Below, piece after piece: positions 1,097-60,137 of a DNA stretch of 64,000 nucleotides. The first letter of the stretch is position 1. Each line of letters begins with the position of its first letter. This DNA comes from Actinomycetes bacterium (GTDB taxonomy: Bacteria; Actinomycetota; Acidimicrobiia; Acidimicrobiales; Palsa-688). The stretch is taken from assembly GCA_021850325.1 (NCBI GenBank), contig JAJZMF010000023.1, positions 1 through 64,000 on the forward strand. Direction: 5' to 3'. The notes beneath the pieces were generated by a model. The model saw only the letters and a program-made list of their open reading frames with translations. It was not told the DNA's origin and searched no databases. Both the position numbers and the translations under genes were made by a program.

Positions 1097-2098
1097 GTGC
1101 CCAGGGGCCGAAGTCCCGTGCCCGTCAGGGCGCCCTTGTCGGCCGCACTGGCGGCTGTAGTTGCCGTTGGCACCGGGGTGGGTGCTGGCGGTGCGCCTCG
1201 GCTGCGGGCGGACGGGCGGCCCCGGCCGTCCTCGGGCGCCTTGGCCCGTCCGGGCGGGCTGCGGCCCTGCGGTTACCTCCGGGGCCGCCCACGCGTCGAC
1301 CAGGTGCTCGTCATCTGGGAGGAGAACCACAGCTACAGCTCAGTTATAGGTAGCCCCGCCGCTCCTGAGATCAACCGCCTGGCCGCCCGGTGCGGGCTGG
1401 CCACGGGCTACGTTGCCCTGGACCACCCGTCCCTTCCCAATTACCTTCAGATGACGTCGGGAGCGCTGTACTCGCACAGCCCTTGGACCAGTGACTGCGG
1501 GCCCTCGGGGGCCTGCACCACCCGGGTCGCTTCGGTGTTCTCGGAGCTGGACCAGGCGCACAAGCAGTGGCGTTCCTACGCCGAGTCCATGGCGACCAAC
1601 TGCGACCTGGTCACGGCAGGCACCTACGCGGCGCGCCACAACCCGGCCGTCTACTACACCTCGGTACGACGCAGGTGCCAACAGTGGGACCAGCCTCTGG
1701 GGACCTTGTCCGAGGGCCCGCTGAGCAGTGCCCTGGCCCATGGCCCCCGGGCCGCCCTGACCACCGTGAGCCCCAACGTCGAGGACGACATGCACGACGG
1801 GACGGTCAAGCAGGCGGACACGTGGTTGGCCGGCTGGGTGCCCCGCATCGTCGCCAGCCCCGCCTACCGCAGCGGGCACCTTGCGGTCCTCATCGTCTGG
1901 GACGAGGGCTTTGGTTCGGGCGACCAGCAGTCGTCGGCGCCGTTGGTGGTGATGTCGGCCTCCACCCCCGCCGGCACCCGCTCCGGGTTGGCCTTCAACG
2001 ACTTCTCGGTGCTGCGGACCGTGAGCCAGTTGAGCGGCGTGCGCCCCCTCGGGTCAGCTGCCAGGGCCCCTTCCCTGGTCCGGCCGTTCCGCCTTTAG
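1097..2098 (+). CDS. Secreted phosphoesterase (acid phosphatase / phospholipase C-like)
   Basis: 333 residues with an N-terminal hydrophobic Ala/Val stretch (residues 12-32) likely to be a signal sequence. The body matches the phosphoesterase family that includes bacterial acid phosphatases and phospholipase C: LVIWEENHSYSSVIG near residue 72 (family motif xxENHSF/Y), LDHPSLPNYLQMTSG, SPNVEDDMHDG, and LIVWDEGFGSGD near residue 268, which supply the metal- and phosphate-binding Asp, Glu and His positions. Substrate specificity cannot be read from sequence; phospholipid or phosphomonoester hydrolysis outside the membrane is the family role. GTG start at 1097. It is divergent from arsR and convergent with the next gene, across a hairpin. 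Confidence 0.8.
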   Translation: MPRGRSPVPVRAPLSAALAAVVAVGTGVGAGGAPRLRADGRPRPSSGALARPGGLRPCGYLRGRPRVDQVLVIWEENHSYSSVIGSPAAPEINRLAARCGLATGYVALDHPSLPNYLQMTSGALYSHSPWTSDCGPSGACTTRVASVFSELDQAHKQWRSYAESMATNCDLVTAGTYAARHNPAVYYTSVRRRCQQWDQPLGTLSEGPLSSALAHGPRAALTTVSPNVEDDMHDGTVKQADTWLAGWVPRIVASPAYRSGHLAVLIVWDEGFGSGDQQSSAPLVVMSASTPAGTRSGLAFNDFSVLRTVSQLSGVRPLGSAARAPSLVRPFRL

Positions 2099-2132
2099 GA
2101 CTGGGCGCTCGGCTCGCTGGCGCGACCTCCGA

Positions 2133-2154
2133 GGGCCGCTGCCGTGAGCGGCCC
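2133..2154. terminator. Bidirectional hairpin between convergent genes
   Basis: GGGCCGCT, loop GCCGTG, AGCGGCCC: perfect 8-bp arms with a 6-base loop between the ends of the phosphoesterase gene and the minus-strand membrane-protein gene. There is no U-tract, as is common for GC-rich actinobacterial terminators. Confidence 0.5.
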
Positions 2155-2168
2155 CGGGGCGCCGGTGC

Positions 2169-2804
2169 TCAGTGGGTTATGCGCAGCTCGGGTAGTTGCA
2201 GCCAGTCCTCGTCGTCGTTCACCAGTAGCGTGCACCGCCCGTGCGCTGCCAGCAGCTGGAGCGGGGTACGGCCGGCTTCCCAGCTGTTCAACCGCCGGGC
2301 CTGCCTGCGGGCGCAGCGTCGGCCGTGGCAGCGCCAGGTGAGGGAGATGTTCGTGGTCTCCACGCTGCGGCGTTGCCGTGTGAGGGGGTCGACGCGAAAG
2401 CCGCTGCCGCCTCGCAGGTACGCCAGCACCTCGTTGCCGAGCACGTAGACCGCCTCGACTTCCACGGCATGCAGCTCCAGGTACAGGTCCTGGGCCCTTG
2501 GGCGTGGGAAGTGGCGGGTGCCGCGGTGCCCGGTGAGGGCGGCAGGCGTCCTCTGTGGGGCCCGGGACCAGGGTGCGGTCACGGCGACGGCCACCCCGGC
2601 GCCAAAAGCACCCGCTGCCGCGGGGACCTGGTGGAGCCCGAACAACAGCCCGCCTGCCGCCAGGCAGAGCACGGGGGCGACGAGTGCCGCCCAGGCCACC
2701 CGGTCCGGGCCACGGTGGCGCCGGGGGTGCTCTCCGGCCAGGGTTGCCGCGGTGCGGGTGCGATGTCCCATCTGGATTGGCACATACCCAACAAGCCCCG
2801 ACAT
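2169..2804 (-). CDS. Hypothetical membrane protein
   Basis: I do not recognise a family. The 211-residue protein has a basic N-terminus (GEHPRRHRGPDR, residues 24-35), then two adjacent hydrophobic segments at about 37-57 and 61-78 that could form a membrane hairpin. A soluble C-terminal domain of about 130 residues follows, with a Tyr/Leu-rich strand (LYLELHAVEVEAVYVLGNEV) and a basic patch with two cysteines (WRCHGRRCARRQARR). The C-terminal half probably faces the cytoplasm given the positive charges, but topology is inference. It stands alone between the phosphoesterase and the rpf-like gene. Confidence 0.6.
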   Translation of the reverse strand: MSGLVGYVPIQMGHRTRTAATLAGEHPRRHRGPDRVAWAALVAPVLCLAAGGLLFGLHQVPAAAGAFGAGVAVAVTAPWSRAPQRTPAALTGHRGTRHFPRPRAQDLYLELHAVEVEAVYVLGNEVLAYLRGGSGFRVDPLTRQRRSVETTNISLTWRCHGRRCARRQARRLNSWEAGRTPLQLLAAHGRCTLLVNDDEDWLQLPELRITH

Positions 2805-2918
2805 CCCACTCTGGCGTAGCCCGGTTTGCCGGGCCCGCCCCGGCGCAGCTCCTGGGCGTGCTCAAGGGCCTGCGGTGCCTGTGGGCGGCGGCCGGACGGA
2901 AGCGGAGGGGTGGGGGCC

Positions 2919-4379
2919 TCAGAGGCCGAGAGCGGCGCTGCAGGCGGGCCAGGGTGACCACCCGGCTGAGGCCTCCAGGTGCTGAGCGGCGGCGTCCTGC
3001 TCCCAGTAGGGGGCGCTGGAGGGTACCCCCGGGTAGCCGAGCGCGTTCCAGGTCGCCCCGGAGAACTGGTAGGCGCCGTAGAAGCCGTTACCGGTGTTCT
3101 CCTGGTAGTTGTCGCCGGACTCGCAGGTCCTCAGCTCCAGCCACACGCCCCCGGCCGGGCCGGGGTGGCCGCCAGCCGAGCCGGCAGCGCTCGCCGGCGA
3201 CGCCGGGGCGGTCGTCGTGCCCGGGGCGGTCGTCAGGGCGCCGAGGGCGCTCGGGCCGGCCGAGGTGGAGGTCGAGGCGGGTGCCGTGCCTGCGCCGGGG
3301 CCGGTCACGCCGGGGACGGTCGTCGTGGCACCAGGGGCGGTGGTGGGGGTGGCCACCGGGACCGCGGCGTCGGTGCTGGCCACCACGGTGCCGGGGCGGG
3401 CAGCCCCCGTCGTGCTTGCGGAGGGTGCAGGAGCGGTCGACGTGGGACCGTACACAGGAGCGCGGCCGTCTAGCTGAGCGGTCACCACCCGTACGAGACC
3501 GTTGGCCTGGGGTGGCCCCGCCTGTGCTGCCGCCCGGGCCCGGGCCTCGGCCGCGGCATGGGCCCTGGCTGCCGCCCGGGCTGCCTGTTCGGCCTGTGCT
3601 GCGGCTCGGGCTGCAGCGGCGGCGCGGGCTGCAGCTTGTGCCCGGGCCTGTGCTTGTGCCCGCGCCTGTGCCTGTGCCGCCGCTTGTGCGGCAGCCTGTG
3701 CTGCTGCCCGCGCCCGGGCTTCGGCTGCCGCCAAAGCTTCGGCCCGGGCAGTGGCCTGGGCCTGGAGGTCCACGACGTCGGCCTGGGCCTGGTCGAGGAG
3801 CTTCTGGAGGGCGCCGGCCTGCACCAGGGCCTGGGTGCGGAGCCTGGCTGCCAGGGCCGCTGCGTGCTCCGCCTGGCTCAGGCGGGTGCGGTAGACGGTG
3901 AGCTCAGCCGTGAGGGCGGTCCCCTGTCGGTCGAAGCGGGCGAGGAGGGCGGAGAGGTCGACCACCGCGAGGTCCTCGTACGCCACCTGGTCGGCCTGGG
4001 CCACGAAGCCGCCGCCGCTGCCTGCCGGCGTGGGCACGGCGCCGGTGTAGGAGAGCAGGGCCTGGCGCTGCACGAGGTCCCGGGTGCGGCCGTAGGCCCG
4101 TTGCAGCGAGCGCGTGCCCCGGGCCAGGGAGGCCACCTCGGGGCGGAGACGGGCCACGTGCGCCTGGTCGGCCAGGTAGCCCAGGGTGAGGGCATGCACC
4201 TGCTGGCCCTGGCGCACCTCGGCGGCGTACAGAGCTGTCGCCCGGGCCCGGGCTGACGGCAGGTTGTCGGCGGAGGCCTGCCGGTTCGCGAGCGCGCCGC
4301 ACACACCTACCAAGGCCGCGAGGCAGGCGAGCGCCCCGACTAGGCGCCCAGCCCCCCGCAGCGCCCCAGCGGCCCCCAT
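2919..4379 (-). CDS. Coiled-coil Rpf-like transglycosylase (resuscitation-promoting factor domain)
   Basis: 486 residues from ATG 4379, which opens with a signal-like segment (GRLVGALACLAALVGVCGAL); longer starts to 4544 add only Arg/Pro-rich sequence. Residues about 40-300 form a long predicted coiled coil ending in an extreme Ala-rich stretch of (A/R/Q) repeats. A Pro/Ala/Thr linker (about 315-400) follows. The last 85 residues are an Rpf domain: LRTCESGDNYQENTG with the catalytic Glu after the first Cys, NGFYGAYQFSGATWNALGYPG, and GWSPWPACSAALGL with the second disulfide Cys. Rpf proteins cleave peptidoglycan glycan strands and promote growth resumption. The coiled-coil N-terminus resembles that of cell-wall hydrolases held inactive until triggered; this is inferred. 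Confidence 0.9.
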   Translation of the reverse strand: MGAAGALRGAGRLVGALACLAALVGVCGALANRQASADNLPSARARATALYAAEVRQGQQVHALTLGYLADQAHVARLRPEVASLARGTRSLQRAYGRTRDLVQRQALLSYTGAVPTPAGSGGGFVAQADQVAYEDLAVVDLSALLARFDRQGTALTAELTVYRTRLSQAEHAAALAARLRTQALVQAGALQKLLDQAQADVVDLQAQATARAEALAAAEARARAAAQAAAQAAAQAQARAQAQARAQAAARAAAAARAAAQAEQAARAAARAHAAAEARARAAAQAGPPQANGLVRVVTAQLDGRAPVYGPTSTAPAPSASTTGAARPGTVVASTDAAVPVATPTTAPGATTTVPGVTGPGAGTAPASTSTSAGPSALGALTTAPGTTTAPASPASAAGSAGGHPGPAGGVWLELRTCESGDNYQENTGNGFYGAYQFSGATWNALGYPGVPSSAPYWEQDAAAQHLEASAGWSPWPACSAALGL

Positions 4380-4566
4380 GGGCTGTCGGCACGCCACGAC
4401 GAGCCAGACACTACCCGGCCGCAACCGTCCCGGCCAGAGCCAACTGTCCCCGCGGGTTGTGGCCGCCCTGTTGTGGCCGCCCTGCTCGGCCGGTGGCATG
4501 ACGCCGGCGGCGGCCGGGGGGCGGGGACGTGGCCGTTGGCGCACCCGACCGGCGCGCCCTACCTGG

Positions 4567-5688
4567 TCAGGGCCCGGGCCAGCGCAGAGCCCGCCCTTTG
4601 TAGATGGCGTCGACGTAACGGGCGTCGATGATCGAGGCGAGGTTGACGCTGTGGCTTATCAGGTGGTAGCCGAGCAGCAGGTGGTACTCGGGTTGCCACT
4701 GGGCGACGTCCTCGTAGCCGAGCGGTCTCCCGGGGAGCAGGGTCGAGACGACCGAGCCTGATTCGACCTGCCAGCGTTGCAGGTTGAGCTGCTTGGGGTA
4801 GCCGGGCTGGTACTTGGCGGCGTCGTTGATGCACGTCGGGGCATGGGCCCGGCAGAACTGGAACGCCTTGAAGGTCGCCCGGAGGAAGTCCTCCAGCGCG
4901 CCGGGGTGGGCGCCGGCCCACTTGCGGTTGACGTCCAGGACGTTGAAGGCCCCTTTGAGGCCGAAGGCGCCCGGGTCCCACTGGCGGACCTTGTAGCCCT
5001 CGTCGCGCAACTGCAGCGGCTCGTTCGACTTGTACGCCGTCAGGGCCTGCACCTCGCCCCTGGGGAGGATCCGGGGGTCGTAGCCGACGGAGACCTCGTG
5101 CAGGGAGGAAATCTTCACCCCTGCCTTCTCGAGCATGGCCGTGATGATGGGCGGCATGGCGCCCTTGTAGCCGATCGTCTTGCCGTCGAGCTGGCGCAGG
5201 TTGGTGATGTCCGGCATGGTGAGCAGGGTGGAGGCGGTGGTGTTGCCGTAAGTGGCCACGGCGTCCACAGGGATGCTCGGAGACCCTGCGACATCGGTTA
5301 TGGCGTCCGAGGGTGAACCGAGCTCCCCCAGGGTGGCCCGCCCCGTGGCCACCAGTTGGCCCGTCGCAGCCGGGTTCCCTGTGCCGGCGTCGATGGTGAC
5401 GTTGAGGCACAGGTCGCTGTAGTAGCCCTGGGCCTTGGCTGCCACCGCGTCGAGGATGCCCACCGATGCCTGCCAGCCGAAGCCCGTCAGGTAGGTGACC
5501 TGCCCCGCCGCCCGGTTCCGCGCACAACGCGCCGCGCCGACCAGGCTGCTGTTGCCGGCGTGCACCCGCAGGGGCGGCAGCGGTGCCGCGGCTGCAGCTT
5601 GGACGGCACCCGGGCCGGCCAGCACGGCCGCTGTGAGCACGGTGGCGAAGCCACGGGCCCGTCTTTGTTGTTGCTTGGTGGTAGCCAT
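4567..5688 (-). CDS. ABC transporter substrate-binding protein, NMT1/SsuA-like
   Basis: 373 residues with a typical export signal (Lys/Arg-rich start, then FATVLTAAVLAGPGAVQAAA). It has the two-lobe NMT1/THI5-like layout: VTYLTGFGWQASVGILDAVAAKAQGYY near the start, then GQLVATGRATLGELGSPSDAI and LRQLDGKTIGYKGA, as in binding proteins for pyrimidine thiamine precursors, sulfonates or nitrate-type anions. It lacks an obvious lipobox Cys. It is the last gene of the operon with the permease and ATPase upstream. The ligand cannot be assigned: no TPP riboswitch or sulfonate gene is nearby. RBS-like AGGGAC lies just before the ATG. Confidence 0.85.
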   Translation of the reverse strand: MATTKQQQRRARGFATVLTAAVLAGPGAVQAAAAAPLPPLRVHAGNSSLVGAARCARNRAAGQVTYLTGFGWQASVGILDAVAAKAQGYYSDLCLNVTIDAGTGNPAATGQLVATGRATLGELGSPSDAITDVAGSPSIPVDAVATYGNTTASTLLTMPDITNLRQLDGKTIGYKGAMPPIITAMLEKAGVKISSLHEVSVGYDPRILPRGEVQALTAYKSNEPLQLRDEGYKVRQWDPGAFGLKGAFNVLDVNRKWAGAHPGALEDFLRATFKAFQFCRAHAPTCINDAAKYQPGYPKQLNLQRWQVESGSVVSTLLPGRPLGYEDVAQWQPEYHLLLGYHLISHSVNLASIIDARYVDAIYKGRALRWPGP

Positions 5689-5786
5689 GTCCCTGGCAGG
5701 CTAGCGGTCACCGGTCGCCGGCCGGCCAGCACCGCGCCCCGCGCCCCGCGGCCCCGCCTAGGGCCGTCCCGTGCCGGGGGCCCCTC

Positions 5787-6611
5787 TCAGCGGAAGCCGC
5801 GGCGTTTGAGCACCCACGCCTCCAGTCCCGCCACCAGCCCGGTCAACAGCAGCCCGAAGAAGGCGAGCACGGCGATCCCCGCCCACGCCAGGTTGAGCTG
5901 GGCATTGGCCGAGGCGGTGTTGATCCAGATACCCAGGCCCACGTTGGTCCCACCGAGCACCATCTCGGCCACGGCGGCGCCCACGAGTGACAGCGGGGCC
6001 GAGATGCGCGCCGCAGCGAACAGGTAGGGCAGGCTGGCCGGCAGCCTCAGGCGCCAGAGGGTCTCCCAGCGCGAGGCGTGCAGGGTCTGGAAGACCTCGA
6101 GAGCCCCCTGGTCGGCCGAGCCCAGGCCCACTATGGCGTTGATCAGCGACGGGAAGAAGGTGATCACCGCTGCCAGCACGACCCTGGGGGCCCGGCCCAG
6201 GCCGAAGGCGATGGACAGGGGAGGGGCGAAGGCGATGATGGGGCTCACGTTGAGCGCCACGGCGAGGGGCAGGACGGCCCGGGTGACAACCCTCGACTGG
6301 CTCATGGCGACGGCCAGGACGATGGCTACGACATAGCTGATGGCCAGGCCCGGGAGGGCCTCGGCCAGGGTGTCGCCCCCATTGGCGAAGAGGGCCACCG
6401 TGTGCCCGGCGAAGGCGGACCAGATGGCGCCGAGGGTCGGGATGATGGCCGTGGTGCTGGAGGCCACGAGCTGCCACGCACCGGCCACGGCGGCCAGTGC
6501 CAGCACCGTGGGCAGCCAGTTGGCCGGGCGCACCAGGCTCGCCAGGCGGGAGAGCGTAACGCCGGCCGTGGCTTGCCGGCCGCCTCCCGCAGGCAGGGCC
6601 GCCCTAGCCAC
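5787..6611 (-). CDS. ABC transporter permease (SsuC/TauC/ThiX-like)
   Basis: 274 residues from GTG 6611, which overlaps the end of the ATPase gene by 8 bases; upstream in-frame sequence is the ATPase gene read in another frame. About six membrane segments are visible, starting at WLPTVLALAAVAGAWQLVAS. The cytoplasmic EAA-type loop that docks on the ATPase is at EVFQTLHASRWETLWRLRLP followed by LPYLFAAARIS. This is the binding-protein-dependent permease family used for sulfonate, taurine, nitrate and thiamine-precursor import. It forms the membrane channel with the neighbouring ATPase and binding protein. Confidence 0.9.
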   Translation of the reverse strand: MARAALPAGGGRQATAGVTLSRLASLVRPANWLPTVLALAAVAGAWQLVASSTTAIIPTLGAIWSAFAGHTVALFANGGDTLAEALPGLAISYVVAIVLAVAMSQSRVVTRAVLPLAVALNVSPIIAFAPPLSIAFGLGRAPRVVLAAVITFFPSLINAIVGLGSADQGALEVFQTLHASRWETLWRLRLPASLPYLFAAARISAPLSLVGAAVAEMVLGGTNVGLGIWINTASANAQLNLAWAGIAVLAFFGLLLTGLVAGLEAWVLKRRGFR

Positions 6612-29326: not shown

Positions 29327-30808
29327 GTGAGCCACACCGACCCCTCCACCAAGTCAAGCCCTGCGCACCGTTACCTCGATGACAACACCCGCCGCACGAA
29401 GGTGGTGGCAACGATCGGCCCGGCCTCCGACTCCCTCGAGACCCTGGCAGCGATGCAGGAGGCGGGCATGGACGTCGCCCGCCTGCCCCTGGCCCACGGC
29501 TCCATAGACGAGGCTGTCGCCCGGCTGCGCCGGGTGCGCCAGGCCGCGCCTGAGGTGGGCGTGCTGGTCGACCTGCCCGGGCCCAAGATCCGCACCACGC
29601 CCTTTCCCGAGGGTGGGGTGCTGCTGGTAGCAGGTGCAGATGTGGTGCTCAGCCCGCAGGGCCTGGCGGCCCGTAGCGACGCGTCGACCATAGGAGTCTC
29701 GGTACCGGAACTGGTGGAGACCCTGCACGAGGGTGACCGGGTGGCTCTCGGCGACGGAGGGGTTGCGCTCCTGGTGGAGTCCCGCGAGGGCTACTCGGTG
29801 CGCTGCCGCGTGGTGGCCGGGGGCAAGGTGCAGGGCCGGCCCGGGGTCACGGCGCCGGCTTCACGCCTCGCCCTGAAGACGCCCACGCCCGAGGACCTCC
29901 ACCGCTTGGAGGTGCTGCTCGAAGAGGGCATCGAGAGCGTGGCCGTGTCCTTTGTCCGGACAGCAGCGGACCTCCACGAGGTCAAAGCCATGGCCGGCCG
30001 GGGCGTCCTGGTGTGCGCCAAGATGGAGACCCCCGAAGCCCTCGACGACATGGACAACATCCTCCAGGTTGCCGACACGGTGATGGTGGCCCGCGGTGAC
30101 CTCGGCGTACGGGTGGCGTTGGAGGAGGTGCCCCACATCCAGAAGCGGCTCATCCGTTCCTGCATCGCCTGGGGGCGCCCGGTGATCACCGCGACCCAGA
30201 TGCTGGAGTCGATGGTGAGCTCCCCGGTGCCTACCCGGGCCGAGGTGACAGACGTGGCCAACGCCGTGTTCGACGGCACCAGCGCCGTGATGCTCTCGGC
30301 GGAGTCGGCGGTGGGCGTCGACCCGGTCAACGCCGTGGCGACGATGGCCCGCATCGCGCGCCGGGCCGACCTGGACTTCGACAGCAGCCACTGGGGACGC
30401 AACCTGCCGGCGCAGAACTTCGCCGCCGAGACGGCCTTCGGGGCGCGCATCACGGCTGCCGTCGGTGCTGCGGCCTGGCGTGCGTCCGTCGAGGAGAGGG
30501 CGGCCGTGATCGTGGCCTGTACCAACACGGGTGCAACGGCGCGTGCGATCGCCCGCTACCGGCCCGCTGCCCCCATCGTTGCCGCCACGCCCTACGAGTA
30601 CACGGCCCGCCAGTTGACCACCAGTTGGGGGGTGGACACCGTGCTGGTGCCCGAGGCGAAGAGCACGGACGAGGCGGTCAACCACGGCGTCGAGGCCGTG
30701 AGGGCAGCGGGTTACGCCAAGGCGGGGGACGTGGTCGTCGTTCTCGCCGGCTCGCTGCACGACCCGGAGCCGGTCACCGACACCCTGCGCCTGGTCCGCG
30801 TGTACTGA
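29327..30808 (+). CDS. pyk: Pyruvate kinase (atypical cation-site residues)
   Basis: 493 residues, full-length with A, B and C domains. KVVATIGPASDSLETL, SFVRTAADLHEVK, catalytic Lys in VCAKMETPEALDDMDN, VMVARGDLGV and ITATQMLESM are standard. The usual RLNFSHG motif reads RLPLAHG here (Pro54 and Ala56 replace the Asn and Ser that bind the monovalent cation), and the Asp-Thr after it is Asp82-Leu83. This may alter K+ dependence. It makes pyruvate and ATP from PEP and ADP. GTG start at 29327 with AGAGG just before. A strong hairpin follows its stop, inside the convergent neighbour. Confidence 0.93.
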   Translation: MSHTDPSTKSSPAHRYLDDNTRRTKVVATIGPASDSLETLAAMQEAGMDVARLPLAHGSIDEAVARLRRVRQAAPEVGVLVDLPGPKIRTTPFPEGGVLLVAGADVVLSPQGLAARSDASTIGVSVPELVETLHEGDRVALGDGGVALLVESREGYSVRCRVVAGGKVQGRPGVTAPASRLALKTPTPEDLHRLEVLLEEGIESVAVSFVRTAADLHEVKAMAGRGVLVCAKMETPEALDDMDNILQVADTVMVARGDLGVRVALEEVPHIQKRLIRSCIAWGRPVITATQMLESMVSSPVPTRAEVTDVANAVFDGTSAVMLSAESAVGVDPVNAVATMARIARRADLDFDSSHWGRNLPAQNFAAETAFGARITAAVGAAAWRASVEERAAVIVACTNTGATARAIARYRPAAPIVAATPYEYTARQLTTSWGVDTVLVPEAKSTDEAVNHGVEAVRAAGYAKAGDVVVVLAGSLHDPEPVTDTLRLVRVY

Positions 30809-49083: not shown

Positions 49084-49974
49084 TCAGACGGAGAGGAGCG
49101 CCGCTCCTACCAGCAGGGCGAGGAAGGCAGTGTCGCCCGCGTAGCTGCCCGTGACGCTCACCCTGCCCTCCCGGCTCACCAGGTCGAGCGCCAGGGGCCG
49201 TAAGCCGAGCGTCCCCCGCACGGAGGCCTTGCCCGGCCCCGGTGACGCGAATATCTCGAAGTCGGCGCCGCCCAGGTCCCCCCGGGCCACGATGGTGCCG
49301 GGTGCGGCACCTGTGCCGTCGCCCGTCACCGAGACGCCGGCGCGCAACGAGGCGCCGCAGAGCAGCCCTTCGACCGGGGCGCCGGCCAGCCGTGCCGTCT
49401 CCGGCCCGAAGAGGCCCTCCAACTTTATGGCGTCCCGGCCGAAATGGCCGTTGACCCGAGCGGACCGCACCACGGCTCCGGGCCCGCCCACGTACCAGGT
49501 GATGCTCGCCTCCCTGGCGCCGAAGCGGCCACGCGCCCAGCCGTGCGGTCCATCGAGGTCGCATTCGGCTTCCCAGACGTCATCGCCGACCCGTCCCGAC
49601 AAAAGGCCTGTCGTCCGTTCGAAGAAGAGCTCCACCGGCTGTGGGCCCGGTGCCGGGGCGGTTGCGGGCAGGTCGGCCAGCACGCGGTGGTGCCCCGTCT
49701 CCGTGCCGCCCGTGGGCCCTGACCGGTCGGCCTCCTCTGACGGTGTGGTTGCCGGGCCGGTGCCCCCCGCCGGCGCCGTGGTGATCACCGTCCCGCAGCC
49801 ACTGCAGAACACGACCTCGACCAGCAGGTGCTGGCGCCCGATACCGGACTGGGGGGCCACCCGGAGAGGCCGGTGCCGGGCCAGGTCGCCCAGGTCCCCG
49901 CCGCAGTGGCCGCAGCGGAGCCTGCGGACCGAGCCGGGTTGGGGTAGCGCTGGCGCCTCCGGGTCCTCGAGCAT
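49084..49974 (-). CDS. Zinc-ribbon-containing hypothetical protein
   Basis: 296 residues. A zinc ribbon occupies residues 20-62: RCGHCGG and, 34 residues later, FCSGCGTV (two CxxC knuckles). After an acidic linker, about residues 110-290 form a beta-rich domain with repeating GxxG strands (LSGRVGDDVWEAECDLDG, RGRFGAREASITWYVGG, VRGTLGLRPLALDLVSREGR), perhaps a beta-solenoid or barrel-like fold. The last 20 residues are hydrophobic (FLALLVGAALLSV). No family recognised. It lies beyond the 3' end of btuD on the same strand, separated by 40 bases. Confidence 0.65.
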   Translation of the reverse strand: MLEDPEAPALPQPGSVRRLRCGHCGGDLGDLARHRPLRVAPQSGIGRQHLLVEVVFCSGCGTVITTAPAGGTGPATTPSEEADRSGPTGGTETGHHRVLADLPATAPAPGPQPVELFFERTTGLLSGRVGDDVWEAECDLDGPHGWARGRFGAREASITWYVGGPGAVVRSARVNGHFGRDAIKLEGLFGPETARLAGAPVEGLLCGASLRAGVSVTGDGTGAAPGTIVARGDLGGADFEIFASPGPGKASVRGTLGLRPLALDLVSREGRVSVTGSYAGDTAFLALLVGAALLSV

Positions 49975-55885: not shown

Positions 55886-56097
55886 GACGGTTGCGCACCA
55901 CATGGGACGCTGGGAGACTGGGTGGTGCGGCTGGGCCGCGGACGGGCCCTGCGTGCCGGCCCGGCGGCCGCCCAGTGCCAACGTCCGAGGAGCCAGGGGG
56001 TCGACCACATGTGCGGGAAGCTGACCGGGAGGGCCGCGACGCGGCCTGGCGGGCTTGCCCAGGGCCAGGGGTGCCCCTGCCCCGGAACGGCCGGGCC

Positions 56098-57039
56098 GTG
56101 CTGAGCGAGGCGGGCAGGCGGGGCAGGGTGGTACTGGCGCCCACCGCGGAGGCCTTTGCCCGCGAGGCGGTCGAGGCCGGGGGCGGCACGGTGGTGGGGC
56201 CGGGCGAGGGGGCCGACTGCCTCGTCTGGCTGGGCAGACCGGCTGAGGTGGCCGCCGCCCTCGAGGCCGAGGACGCCCTCGAGTGGGTGCAGCTCCCCAT
56301 GGCCGGGGTGGAGGGAGTAGCCGAAGCAGGGGTCTTCGACGACCCGCGCTGGTCCGGTCTGACCTGGACCTGTGCCAAGGGCTCCTTCGCCGAGCCCGTG
56401 GCGGAGCACGCCCTGGCGCTGGCACTGGCGGGCCTACGCCACCTGGCGCTGCGGGCGCGTGCCACCTCCTGGGGGGAGCAGGCAGGGACGACCCTCTACG
56501 ACGCCCAGGTCACTGTGCTCGGAGGGGGCGGCATCGCCGCCTCGCTGCTCCAGTTGCTGGAGCCCTTCCGGGTGAGGGCCACCGTCGTGCGCCGTTCAGC
56601 CGAGCCCCTGGCCGGGGCGTGGAGGACGGTGACGCCGGAGCACCTCCACGAGGTGCTCCCCGGCTCCCGGTGCCTGTTCGTGGCGCTGGCCCTGCACCCC
56701 GGTACGGTCAAGGTCGTTGGCGAGCGCGAGCTCGAGCTGCTGGGCCCTGACGGATGGCTGGTGAACGTGGCCCGGGGGCGCCATGTGGACACGGAGGCCC
56801 TGGTGAAGGCGTTGCAGGAGGGCACGATCGGAGGGGCGGGCCTGGACGTGACCGACCCCGAACCCCTGCCTGCCGGGCACCCGCTCTGGTCGATGCCCAA
56901 TTGCCTGGTGACACCGCACACCGCTGACACACCTGAGATGGTCCGGGCGTTGCTCGCCACCAGGGTGACCGAGAACGTGGCCCGCTGGCGGGAGGGCCGG
57001 CGACTGGTGGGCCTGGTGGACCCGGCCGCCGGCTACTGA
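56098..57039 (+). CDS. D-isomer-specific 2-hydroxyacid dehydrogenase
   Basis: 313 residues from GTG 56098 (GTG 56071 possible). Rossmann NAD motif VTVLGGGGIAASLLQLLEPF at about 135, catalytic Arg in VNVARGRHVDTEALVKAL, Glu in GLDVTDPEPLPAGHPLW and His in LVTPHTADTPEMV, the standard triad. The substrate may be glyoxylate/hydroxypyruvate or another 2-oxoacid; not resolvable from sequence. It ends 3 bases before the kinase gene and may be part of its transcript. Confidence 0.9.
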   Translation: MLSEAGRRGRVVLAPTAEAFAREAVEAGGGTVVGPGEGADCLVWLGRPAEVAAALEAEDALEWVQLPMAGVEGVAEAGVFDDPRWSGLTWTCAKGSFAEPVAEHALALALAGLRHLALRARATSWGEQAGTTLYDAQVTVLGGGGIAASLLQLLEPFRVRATVVRRSAEPLAGAWRTVTPEHLHEVLPGSRCLFVALALHPGTVKVVGERELELLGPDGWLVNVARGRHVDTEALVKALQEGTIGGAGLDVTDPEPLPAGHPLWSMPNCLVTPHTADTPEMVRALLATRVTENVARWREGRRLVGLVDPAAGY

Positions 57040-57042
57040 ACT

Positions 57043-58479
57043 GTGGGCTGGGAGCCTGCCTCGGCGAGGACCGGCCGTCCCGTCCCCGGCGCTCCCGAGG
57101 AGGCCCCGGTCGTGGCGGCCGGGGAGCTCGTACTGGGCGGGCTGCTGGCCGAGGGGGGCGAGGGCCGGGTTTTCGAGGTGGTGTCTGCGCCTCCTGGCCT
57201 CGGCGGCCCGGGCCCCGTGGTGTACAAGCAGCTGCGCTCACCGCGCCCTCTCGGGGAGCTGAGGGCCGTCGTCGCCGTGCCCGGGGCCGTCCGTGCGGCC
57301 CGGCCGGAGCTGGCGGAGAGGGTGAGGACCGGTTCCTCCTGGCCGCTGGCGGTGGTCGTGGACGAGGCGGCCCCGACCGCTAGCGTGGCGTCCTCGGCGG
57401 GCCGGGAAGGCCCGCTCGCCCTGGGGGCCCTGCTGCCACGCGCGCCCGAGCGCTTCCGCGTGCTGCACCGGGACGGTTCCGCCCGCTTGGCAGGCCTTTC
57501 GTACCTCGCCACTGACCCCGACCGGGTGGAGCTGGCCTACGGGGTCGACGTGCCCGCGCCGGGGGCCGCCGAGCGGGTGGCCATCGTGCTCAGCCTGGCG
57601 CTGCTGCTCGAGGCGCTCCAGGAGGCTCCCGGTGCGCCCCCTGTCGCCCATGGCGACCTGTCGGCCCGCAACGTGCTCTGGTCCTTGGCACCGGCGCCAG
57701 AGGTGTACGTGATCGACTGCGACGGGGCCGCTCCGGCCGGCGGGGCCGACCGGCCCCGGGTGACCACGCCCAACTGGGAGGACCCGGCTCTCCGCCCGGG
57801 TGGCCCGGTCAGCCTGGCGGCGGACCGCTACGCGCTGGGGCTCACCTTCCTGCGGGTCGTCGGAGCAGCCAACTTCCCGCTCCAGGGCCGTCAGCGCTCG
57901 GGCGCCCCGGTGGCCGTGGACCTGGAACTGCCCCGTACCTGGCGCCGCCTCCCCGACATGGCATGGCTGTGGAGGCTGTGCGAGCGCTCCCTGTCCGTGG
58001 TGGGTGCCGAGCACCGGCCGGCGCCCTCGGAGTGGGTGGCAGCACTCAGGGCGCTGCTGGCGGAACTGGGGCAACCGGTCAGCGGACAGGCCGCCGGTGC
58101 CGGGGCGACGGTGCCGGTGCTCGCAGGGGAGGCACCTCCCGATGTGGAGGTGCGCCCCGTGCTGAGGCACCGCGCCCCGTCCACCTGGCAGCTGGTCAGG
58201 CCCGAGAGGCAGACGGCGCCGGTTGGCGCCGGTGCCCACCAGGGTGCGCTGGCCGGGCTGGTAGGGCTCCCTGTGGGGGCCAACTGGCGCAGTGTGCTCC
58301 GGGCGGCGCTGGGCATCTGGGCCGGTGCTCACCGCTTGGCAGCACGTCTGCTGGCCCGTCCGGGACGCCGGCGCCACGGCGCCCGCCGCTTGGCCGGCCT
58401 CCTCGTGTTCGACCTCGCCGCCGGGTGCGTCGCCCTCTTCCTCACCGGCATGGTGGTGAGCCCCTGGATCGGGCTGTGA
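57043..58479 (+). CDS. Divergent protein kinase with C-terminal TM (TerY-P-like triad)
   Basis: 478 residues, GTG start. Kinase-like fold: LLAEGGEGRVFEV (Gly-loop), VVYKQLRSP with Lys62, the catalytic loop VAHGDLSARNVLW (Asp205) and metal loop VIDCDGAAPAG (Asp225/Asp227). A WEDPAL segment follows where APE normally lies. Sequence is far from the Hanks consensus. After an Arg-rich patch (LARPGRRRHGARR) the last 30 residues form one membrane helix, so it is anchored with the kinase inside. It precedes VWA and PP2C genes, the set seen in TerY-P triads. Confidence 0.8.
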   Translation: MGWEPASARTGRPVPGAPEEAPVVAAGELVLGGLLAEGGEGRVFEVVSAPPGLGGPGPVVYKQLRSPRPLGELRAVVAVPGAVRAARPELAERVRTGSSWPLAVVVDEAAPTASVASSAGREGPLALGALLPRAPERFRVLHRDGSARLAGLSYLATDPDRVELAYGVDVPAPGAAERVAIVLSLALLLEALQEAPGAPPVAHGDLSARNVLWSLAPAPEVYVIDCDGAAPAGGADRPRVTTPNWEDPALRPGGPVSLAADRYALGLTFLRVVGAANFPLQGRQRSGAPVAVDLELPRTWRRLPDMAWLWRLCERSLSVVGAEHRPAPSEWVAALRALLAELGQPVSGQAAGAGATVPVLAGEAPPDVEVRPVLRHRAPSTWQLVRPERQTAPVGAGAHQGALAGLVGLPVGANWRSVLRAALGIWAGAHRLAARLLARPGRRRHGARRLAGLLVFDLAAGCVALFLTGMVVSPWIGL

Positions 58480-58498
58480 CCGGCCGTGCTGGGGGATT

Positions 58499-58526
58499 TT
58501 GTCAGGGTTGCCTGCTCCGGTAGCCT
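58499..58526 (+). promoter_or_regulatory. Candidate sigma-70-type promoter before the VWA gene
   Basis: TTGTCA (58499-58504), 16-base spacer, TAGCCT (58521-58526), with the ATG at 58537, giving a predicted 5' end only a few bases before the start codon (near-leaderless). It lies in the 57-base gap after the kinase gene. Confidence 0.4.
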
Positions 58527-58536
58527 CGGACGGGCG

Positions 58537-59244
58537 ATGGCCAGCGAGCTTGTGGGCGCCGAAGAGCGCTATGCAGTGTTCCCCTTCTACCTCTGCCTGG
58601 ATGTCTCCCAGTCGATGGCCGGTGAGCCGGTCTCGCAGGTCAATGCCGAGCTCCCCCTGGTGCTCCGGGCCATCGGACAGGACCCGGCCGTGGCCGAGGT
58701 GGTGCGTTTTGCGGTCGTGACCTTCTCCGACACGGCCCGTACCCTGCTCCCGCTGGCGGACCTGGCGCTGGTCGAGGCGATGCCCACGGTGGAGGTGGAG
58801 GGCCGCACCTCCTATGCCGCCGCCTTCGACCACCTGCGCCGGGTGATCGAGGCCGACTACCACGCCGGGCGCAGCGAGGGGGAGCGTTGGTACCGTCCGG
58901 CCGTCCTTTTCGTCTCCGACGGCCGGCCCACCGACCCGGACGAACGTTGGCGCCAGGCTCTGGCCCGCCTGGCCGACCCGACCTGGAAGCGGCGCCCCAA
59001 CATCCTGGCCTTCGGCTTCGGGGAGGCCGTGCCCGAGGTGCTGGCCGAGGTGGCAGGGAACAAGCCCAACCGCGCCTTCGTGGCCACCCGGGACGCCCCG
59101 CCGTCCGCGGTGGTGCCCGAGCTGATGGCTGGGTTGGTCCAGTCCATCGTCAGCAGTTCGGCCAGCGCCTATTCGGGGTCGCCCCAGTTGGTGCCGCCCC
59201 AGCTGGCGAACATGCAGCCCATACCGGTGGACGAGCTGGGATGA
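58537..59244 (+). CDS. VWA-domain protein, TerY-like
   Basis: 235 residues from ATG 58537. Nearly the whole protein is one von Willebrand A domain with a complete metal-ion-dependent adhesion site: DVSQS (Asp22, Ser24, Ser26), GRTSYAAAF (Thr91) and LFVSDGRPTD (Asp128). Such intracellular VWA proteins (TerY group) act as metal-dependent adaptors in phosphorylation triads and tellurite/stress systems. Its stop overlaps the PP2C start (ATGA). No signal peptide. Confidence 0.87.
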   Translation: MASELVGAEERYAVFPFYLCLDVSQSMAGEPVSQVNAELPLVLRAIGQDPAVAEVVRFAVVTFSDTARTLLPLADLALVEAMPTVEVEGRTSYAAAFDHLRRVIEADYHAGRSEGERWYRPAVLFVSDGRPTDPDERWRQALARLADPTWKRRPNILAFGFGEAVPEVLAEVAGNKPNRAFVATRDAPPSAVVPELMAGLVQSIVSSSASAYSGSPQLVPPQLANMQPIPVDELG

Positions 59245-60137
59245 CCCCGGGGTGGGCCGGCCCCGCCTGGGGCCAGCCTTCCGCCGCCAGTGCCGCGCCC
59301 GTACCTCGTCGCCCCACCGTGGCGGCCGAGGACGCCGCCTACAGGGCGGAAGGTGGCATGTCCGCCGGACTGGTCGTCCTGGCCGCGAGCGTGGCCGGGG
59401 TCTCGCACCGTCTGGCGGAGCGGCGCAACGAGGACTCCTTCGCCTGGTCCTCGGCTGGGCCGGGGCGGCTGGCGGTAGCCGTGGCCGACGGTGTCAGCTC
59501 GGCCGGGCGGGGGGGTGAGGGCGCGGCCCTGGCTGTGCGCGCCGCCAGCCAGTGGACGGCCGCCCATGTCCCTCGGGTACCGGCGCACGGGGAGGCACGC
59601 GATGTGACCGGCTGCACCTCTGCCCTGGTGGCCGCGAACGAGCGCCTGCTCCTGGCTCAGCCGGGCAGGCCCGCAGGGCCCGGTTCCGAGCTTGCCACGA
59701 CCCTGGTGGCCGGCTTGGTCGAGCAGGCCCCTGGTGGCCGGGCACGGGCCTGCTTGGCCAGGGTGGGGGACAGCACAGGCTTCGTGCTGTCGGCCGGGCG
59801 CACCTGGCGGGAGGTGTTCCTGCCCGGGGGCGACGACGGTCCCGCCACCGATGCGCTTCCCCACCCGGCTCTTGGGCTGGACGCGGACGTGGTCCAGGTG
59901 GTGGAGGTGGACCTCGAGCCGGGCGAGGCGCTGGTCCTGGTCACCGACGGGGTGGCCAACCCTCTGCGTGACGGCCCCTCGACGGTGGCCCCGGCACTGG
60001 GCGGGGTCGTGGCCGAGGCCGCGGTCGGACGGGTGTCACCGGTGGGGCTGCTGGCGGCGCTCGACTTCAGCCGCCGGGGGGCCCACGACGACCGCACCCT
60101 GCTGCTGGTCTCGTCCTGGCCCGAGCATGGGGCCTAG
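59241..60137 (+). CDS. PP2C-family protein phosphatase
   Basis: 298 residues. PP2C metal and phosphate residues are present: RRNEDSFAWS (Glu-Asp), VAVADGVSSAG (Asp-Gly), ARVGDSTGFV, LVLVTDGVANPL (Asp-Gly) and AHDDRTLLLV (Asp). It is expected to dephosphorylate Ser/Thr on targets of the upstream kinase. Coupled to the VWA gene by a 4-base overlap. Its stop (TAG 60135-60137) shares bases with the stop of the convergent lgt gene (CTAG). Confidence 0.9.
   Translation: MTPGWAGPAWGQPSAASAAPVPRRPTVAAEDAAYRAEGGMSAGLVVLAASVAGVSHRLAERRNEDSFAWSSAGPGRLAVAVADGVSSAGRGGEGAALAVRAASQWTAAHVPRVPAHGEARDVTGCTSALVAANERLLLAQPGRPAGPGSELATTLVAGLVEQAPGGRARACLARVGDSTGFVLSAGRTWREVFLPGGDDGPATDALPHPALGLDADVVQVVEVDLEPGEALVLVTDGVANPLRDGPSTVAPALGGVVAEAAVGRVSPVGLLAALDFSRRGAHDDRTLLLVSSWPEHGA

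Follow-up and report, generated by a model that had tools for sequence, protein, structure and literature searches.

Most described triads of a protein kinase, a VWA-domain protein and a PP2C phosphatase accompany defence or stress islands. Close to the locus considered here is the E. coli trio of YegI, PphC (YegK) and YegL. Portions of PMC13232886 describe YegI as membrane bound, autophosphorylating on serine and dephosphorylated by PphC, and give the expression conditions of yegI and pphC as still undefined. In the definition excerpted from PMC11090510, the TerY-P kinase carries a C-terminal fusion, which is a zinc ribbon or, in defence versions, an OB-fold. For actinobacteria, sections of a 2020 eLife paper (PMC7159879) describe a GAP1-N2 module whose active kinase is fused to a zinc ribbon and a beta-rich domain, or to transmembrane (TM) helices, with an adjacent PP2C phosphatase and standalone vWA protein.

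Here we analyse a trio of this kind from an Actinomycetes bacterium (Acidimicrobiales; Palsa-688), whose genome assembly GCA_021850325.1 comprises 3.18 Mb in 49 contigs. The window is the whole stretch of DNA that was analysed, positions 1 to 64,000 (64,000 nucleotides) of contig JAJZMF010000023.1. An initial annotation, made from the letters alone, had placed three consecutive genes for a kinase, a VWA protein and a PP2C phosphatase at 57043–60137 and likened them to a stripped, membrane-tethered TerY-P triad; the coordinates proved exact. We consider it probable that the trio is a reversible protein phosphorylation switch of the YegI-PphC-YegL type, in a zinc-ribbon-free actinobacterial form.

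Homology and conserved residues of the three proteins

The window trio is homologous, three to three, to YegI (kinase), PphC (PP2C) and YegL (VWA). Searches against E. coli with hmmsearch recovered YegL at 5.1e-20, PphC at 1.3e-10 and YegI at 3.5e-8, and profile-profile comparison with hhalign gave probabilities of 99.0% for YegL, 93.5% for PphC (over an alignment of only 70 columns) and 92.8% for YegI. The VWA–YegL pairing thus bears out the likeness to TerY-type triads. The VWA protein (Pfam VWA, 2.1e-10) has the complete metal-ion-dependent adhesion site (MIDAS) that had been annotated: D22, S24, S26, T91 and D128 are invariant in all 24 aligned sequences. Its matches extend to plasmid-borne VWA proteins (2,305 of 72,556 plasmid records); among the 30 matches listed, one is named TerY-C. 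Its C-terminal tail (59131–59241), 35 near-invariant residues (GLVQSIVSSSAS...IPVDEL), lies outside the VWA core. The phosphatase was likewise correctly identified (Pfam PP2C_2, 3.5e-21), and its catalytic set is invariant in 19 aligned sequences (D65, D83-G84, G176-D177, D236-G237 and D283-D284). A leader (59241–59360) with a recurring WGxPSxA motif precedes the catalytic domain. The PP2C open reading frame (ORF) was listed mechanically from 58887, and its real start is the ATG at 59241, which overlaps the VWA stop by four bases (ATGA). E. coli yegL and pphC have the same 4-base overlap.

The kinase is more divergent, and we assign it as a kinase because of its homology to YegI, a match to the NCBIfam LanKC model (4.8e-5, far under that model's cut-off) and weak PDB profile matches, all 13 of which are to protein kinases (E 0.028–0.99). 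The Lys/HGD/DxD set noted at the outset is intact, with K62, H203-G204-D205, D225 and D227 invariant in 23 aligned orthologues. All three alignments omit partial or odd frames (e.g., the VWA of locus L039); one kinase row, L051, contains a run of N and loses its frame downstream of it. The true start may lie up to ∼25 codons inside the 478-aa frame, where conservation begins in the kinase alignment.

Hydropathy also supports the annotated C-terminal membrane helix, which is found in 25 of 28 kinase loci and so in all 25 that can be judged; two of the remaining three are cut by contig ends and one carries the N run. A short tail, SPWIGL, follows the helix, and a juxtamembrane segment with an invariant W426 and basic residues precedes it. 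Because of this segment and the near-invariant Asp457 inside the helix, conservation suggests that the helix has a role beyond anchoring. Between the kinase domain and the membrane segment, DVxVRP is the sole conserved stretch of an otherwise variable linker, and by its sequence it is a possible docking or phosphorylation site.

Conservation of the operon in the window's family

We surveyed 61 genomes, the window's own and 60 relatives, of which 32 species belong to the window's family and 29 genomes to other families. A single-sequence search (E ≤ 0.001) found the kinase in 27 of the 32 family genomes and in none of the 29 from other families. The VWA profile matches 26 of the 32, among them all 12 good genomes (completeness ≥ 90%, contamination ≤ 5%), with one match each. 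Kinase and VWA are missing together from five genomes of 61–89% completeness (G006, G012, G013, G020 and G026). The genes therefore do co-occur in relatives, and the lack of co-occurrence that the initial annotation had named as grounds for refutation is not seen: the VWA gene is next after the kinase in 26 of the 27 kinase-bearing family genomes (24 relative loci, the window and G009), and in the remaining one, G025, the kinase stands without a VWA at the end of its contig. In G009 a second contig opens with the end of the kinase, followed by VWA and PP2C.

Gene order is kept across 13 genera. In the window all three genes run in one direction. Across the family the kinase–VWA gap is 17–216 bases with one exception (G010, below), PP2C follows VWA in 25 of the 26 VWA-bearing family genomes, and the two overlap by 4 bases in the window and seven relatives. 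A chance grouping of three ORFs is ruled out by this conserved order together with the conserved residues, and a one-genome oddity by the family-wide presence of kinase and VWA. The VWA is the most conserved of the three, with 61–87% identity to the window protein compared with 38–65% for the kinase and 41–61% for PP2C. In the ten relatives that have both, it changes about as slowly as pyruvate kinase (66–87% against 58–89%); this comparison covers a single housekeeping gene and takes its identities from two different aligners. Across 16 genomes, the pairwise divergences of kinase, VWA and PP2C are correlated (r 0.88, 0.85 and 0.74; partial genes and loci L051, L054, L056 and L057 excluded). 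The triad is a single-locus, slowly evolving and apparently vertically inherited operon.

The pyruvate kinase query (window 29327–30808) itself has matches in only 14 of the 32 family genomes, six of them among the 12 good ones, and for this reason pyruvate kinase may have been lost or replaced across much of the family.

Table 1. Features of the trio and of the preceding gene in the window. Conservation refers to alignments of 23 kinase and 24 VWA sequences.
Feature	Position	Strand	Details
Divergent YegI-type Ser/Thr kinase with C-terminal membrane anchor	57043..58479	+	478 aa counted from GTG at 57043
GGEG, nucleotide-binding loop, residues 38-41	57154..57165	+	invariant
Lys62, beta-3 lysine	57226..57228	+	invariant
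HGD catalytic motif, residues 203-205 (with N210)	57649..57657	+	invariant
D225-C-D227, metal-binding (DFG-equivalent) motif	57715..57723	+	invariant
DVEVRP, residues 367-372	58141..58158	+	D367, V368 at least 90%; P372 invariant
C-terminal membrane helix, residues 454-472	58402..58458	+	mean hydropathy 2.23; near-invariant Asp457 inside
Single-domain TerY/YegL-type VWA protein	58537..59244	+	235 aa; Pfam VWA, profile match to YegL
MIDAS DxSxS, residues 22-26 (with T91, D128)	58600..58614	+	invariant
PP2C phosphatase	59241..60137	+	298 aa; stop ends at 60137; Pfam PP2C_2
D-2-hydroxyacid dehydrogenase-like gene	56071..57039	+	Pfam PF02826 5.4e-40; ends 3 bases before kinase

Downstream of PP2C, the window carries a convergent lgt gene. 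Other neighbours identified with Pfam encode an MMPL transporter, alpha-amylase-type enzymes, an ABC/FecCD/binding-protein set, a Na/Ca exchanger, an aldehyde dehydrogenase and a BldD-like regulator; the ORF at 49084–49974 has no match in the Pfam scan. No nuclease, helicase or restriction gene was found among the neighbours scanned, in agreement with the annotated lack of nucleic-acid genes.

Upstream partners and competing explanations

Two different genes precede the kinase within the family. Upstream sequence is available for 25 genomes, and the gene directly before the kinase is the dehydrogenase in 10 and VIT1, a metal-transporter gene, in 15. The dehydrogenase is adjacent in 10 of 10 genomes of clade A, which includes the window, and it is likely co-transcribed with the kinase there. 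VIT1 is directly upstream in all 15 clade-B genomes with upstream sequence. Clade B is the larger, earlier-branching part of the family, and the VIT1 arrangement looks older because, in the kinase tree, VIT1-linked rows surround the dehydrogenase clade. VIT1 and the kinase overlap by 4 bases in seven of the 15 VIT1-linked genomes, and the one VIT1 member scanned matches its Pfam model at 2.6e-60. The genes upstream of VIT1 vary between genera. Downstream, four genomes encode a GDT1-type cation antiporter (cluster c20; Pfam run on one). The VIT1 and GDT1 neighbours make metal transport no more than a plausible output of the triad; a limited literature search found no report linking the VIT family with it.

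The kinase activity, complex formation and direction of signalling that we infer would fit together as follows. The kinase domain would be cytoplasmic and held by its C-terminal anchor, and would therefore act at the membrane's inner face. The VWA protein would serve as an adaptor: its metal-dependent site would bind an acidic peptide belonging to the kinase, to the phosphatase or to a substrate, bringing these together. PP2C, its translation presumably coupled to that of VWA by the 4-base overlap, would reset the signal by removing phosphate from the kinase or its target. The regulated process might be metal transport or storage, for which the VIT-family gene preceding the operon is the best lead. 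In its most specific form, the operon would be a dedicated control unit for membrane metal transport in which the tail-anchored kinase phosphorylates the co-encoded VIT-family transporter, or a VWA-bound partner, and PP2C reverses this. The helix Asp would then contact the transporter, and in the window's clade the switch would have outlasted the loss or relocation of the transporter. We offer this joint proposal tentatively and think it unlikely as it stands. If true, the metal link long proposed for TerY-type triads would gain a physical target. VIT1, as a repeated neighbour, names a target that can be tested.

Several observations weigh against a phosphorylation switch and against its proposed metal target. 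The kinase identity of the membrane-anchored protein is the weakest link. Pfam gives it no kinase model at E ≤ 1, its only match being TCAD9 at 0.037, and no column between K62 and W100 is invariant in the 23 rows, so that a conserved alpha-C glutamate is not evident. Structure prediction, which the initial annotation had suggested as a check, gave a poor model: built from four sequences, it has a mean predicted local distance difference test (pLDDT) score of 47.5 and a failed N-lobe. Searched against PDB, it gave 323 fold matches at E ≤ 10 and none at E ≤ 0.001; the 50 listed are nonetheless all kinase or pseudokinase domains, which supports the assignment weakly. The operon is interrupted in G010 (L052), where kinase and VWA are 1,480 bases apart with an opposite-strand ORF between them, and G031 (L040) lacks PP2C beside VWA; the insert or the absence could be an assembly fault. 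The correlated divergences are explicable by shared descent alone and are no proof of binding. The clade that contains the window has no VIT1 linkage, the dehydrogenase taking the place of VIT1 there, and VIT1 is multi-copy in the window genome. The three full VIT1 genes of that genome lie elsewhere and reach at best 56% identity to the triad-linked VIT1 genes, none being clearly orthologous; the triad-linked VIT1 genes share 61–70% identity with each other in the five lowest-scoring pairs listed. Finally, synteny seen in a single family says little about function.

The lack of a conserved alpha-C glutamate and of a Pfam kinase match would fit a pseudokinase, that is, a nucleotide-binding membrane scaffold that does not phosphorylate and has VWA and PP2C as partners. 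However, YegI, described as without conserved motifs in the title of a work cited by PMC13232886, is reported to be active. Moreover, Lys62, HGD, N210 and D225 are invariant in 23 rows, and 25 of the 26 VWA-bearing genomes keep a phosphatase whose catalytic set is invariant; we judge a pseudokinase improbable. The protein might instead phosphorylate small molecules or lipids at the membrane, as APH-like and LanKC-like kinases bearing HGD and IDxD motifs can elsewhere. Its HGD and ID-C-D motifs, which we take to be APH/RIO-like in form, would speak for this, as would the LanKC match and weak matches of the relative L096 to APH and Kdo (0.0013 and 0.014). Against it stand the PP2C protein phosphatase and VWA protein that consistently accompany the kinase, and the reported dephosphorylation of YegI by PphC (PMC13232886). 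We judge such a substrate very improbable.

Alternatively, the trio could be an anti-phage defence module of the TerY-P kind, in which the kinase senses infection, phosphorylation triggers protection and PP2C stops false alarms. According to passages of PMC10889362, TerY-P protected Pseudomonas aeruginosa against some phages, and distant ribbon-free relatives lie beside conflict-type genes (CHAT in L098; an FtsK/FHA ATPase and WXG100-sized ORFs in L096). In the window, however, no defence gene was found among the neighbours scanned. PADLOC returned no kinase or VWA match at E ≤ 1 and, for PP2C, only PDC-M21C at 0.05; this silence is weak evidence because the library's model list, including the presence of a TerY-P model, was left unchecked. 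Fixed presence (12 of 12 good family genomes, one locus each, in an inherited gene order) and slow evolution make defence less likely, and slow change of the VWA at about the rate of pyruvate kinase speaks against an arms race. We hold a defence role to be quite improbable, and retain the YegI-PphC-YegL-type switch as the preferred reading.

Wider relatives and comparison with known triads

Relatives of the trio are scattered beyond the family. The VWA profile matches eight genomes besides the window's in a survey of 296 spread over the phylum, and in seven of the eight, relatives of the kinase and of PP2C lie nearby; a contig end truncates the eighth. The L097 kinase is divergent, and those of L101 and L103 match the kinase profile weakly (E 0.0011 and 0.00012), that of L101 passing the Pfam Pkinase cut-off. 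Among 198 genomes of the order, 15 match the kinase profile at E ≤ 1e-5: seven from the window's family, three others with triads (G041, G067 and G104, the last with two kinases) and five without VWA. These five, from other families of the order (G072, G135, G165, G197 and G221), have weak matches and were taken as other kinases because no VWA lies in the stretches examined. A Rhodococcus plasmid locus (L109) is a triad by annotation, but only its VWA matched our profiles; its kinase is conventional and was kept out of the tree.

A tree of 26 kinases, including 12 from the 28 family loci, is split by a 100/100 branch into seven CPWC zinc-ribbon kinases, YegI included, and 19 ribbon-free ones. 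The 12 family kinases form one group (100/100), and L096 and L099 sit on long branches. All seven kinases on the zinc-ribbon side of the tree carry CPWC, which is absent from the 27 relative loci. Outside the family there are seven ribbon-free kinases, four with membrane helices (two in L097, and those of L098 and L110) and three without (two in L088, and that of L096). L088 encodes, at 1714–5806, a kinase-VWA-PP2C-kinase array in which neither kinase has a membrane helix. In L096 the ribbon-free triad adjoins an FtsK/FHA-domain ATPase and two WXG100-sized ORFs, as in ESX-type systems, and in L098 (1614–4562) a CHAT-domain protein is encoded beside the triad. A plasmid triad of Streptomyces sp. 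NBC_00490 (L110) resembles the window trio in having a VWA, a PP2C and a kinase (353 aa) that lacks CxxC and bears a single membrane helix at its C-terminus; this kinase matches our kinase profile at 3.1e-26. The plasmid triad differs in its order (VWA-PP2C-kinase), in being plasmid-borne beside a WD-repeat-like ORF, and in the position of its kinase elsewhere in the ribbon-free branch.

Compared with its E. coli homologues, the window kinase is plainer. YegI has two strong predicted membrane helices, a CPWC zinc-ribbon-like motif and a C-terminal HHH_5 match (E 9.3e-4, short of the Pfam cut-off), whereas the window kinase has one terminal helix with nothing beyond it, and three cysteines but no CxxC. 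The kinase gene comes first in the window and last in E. coli. Like the window trio, the E. coli trio is not beside ter genes (12 kb examined). The term 'stripped' therefore holds for the missing zinc ribbon, C-terminal helix-hairpin-helix and other domains, but the form is no one-off, since it belongs to the actinobacterial branch supported at 100/100. Membrane tethering is no departure, given the two predicted helices of YegI and its description as membrane bound in portions of PMC13232886, nor is a membrane-tethered version new, as sections of PMC7159879 already note TM-fused kinases with PP2C and standalone vWA in actinobacteria.

The other described systems can be set beside the trio in the same way. 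It shares with TerY-P triads a TerY-like VWA with MIDAS, a PP2C-like phosphatase and a homologous, putative Ser/Thr kinase. The zinc ribbon is missing from its kinase, and no OB-fold was found by Pfam, the one method used to look for it; because the TerY-P definition in the excerpted PMC11090510 calls for a ribbon, the trio is not TerY-P in the strict sense. A ter system is ruled out by the absence of TerD, the only ter gene searched genome-wide, from all 32 family genomes, which also agrees with the annotated lack of tellurite genes nearby. The trio likewise resembles the GAP1-N2-associated module, as far as it is set out in sections of PMC7159879, in its TM-fused kinase, PP2C and vWA, but it lacks the GAP1-N2 gene. 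GAP1-N2 matches were found in none of the 32 family genomes, with a positive control in Corynebacterium glutamicum, and that system is ruled out too.

Judged by its sequences, then, the window trio is a member of the wider YegI-PphC-YegL kind, in its zinc-ribbon-free actinobacterial branch. Neither its membrane tethering (YegI) nor, in actinobacteria, the association of TM-fused kinases with PP2C and vWA is new, given the accounts excerpted in PMC13232886 and PMC7159879. It is a minimal triad, without zinc ribbon, ter or GAP1-N2 genes, fixed at one locus in 12 of 12 good genomes; what sets it apart as a variant is that the kinase has no ribbon, that the trio has the status of a single-locus core gene set and that VIT1 or the dehydrogenase is its partner.

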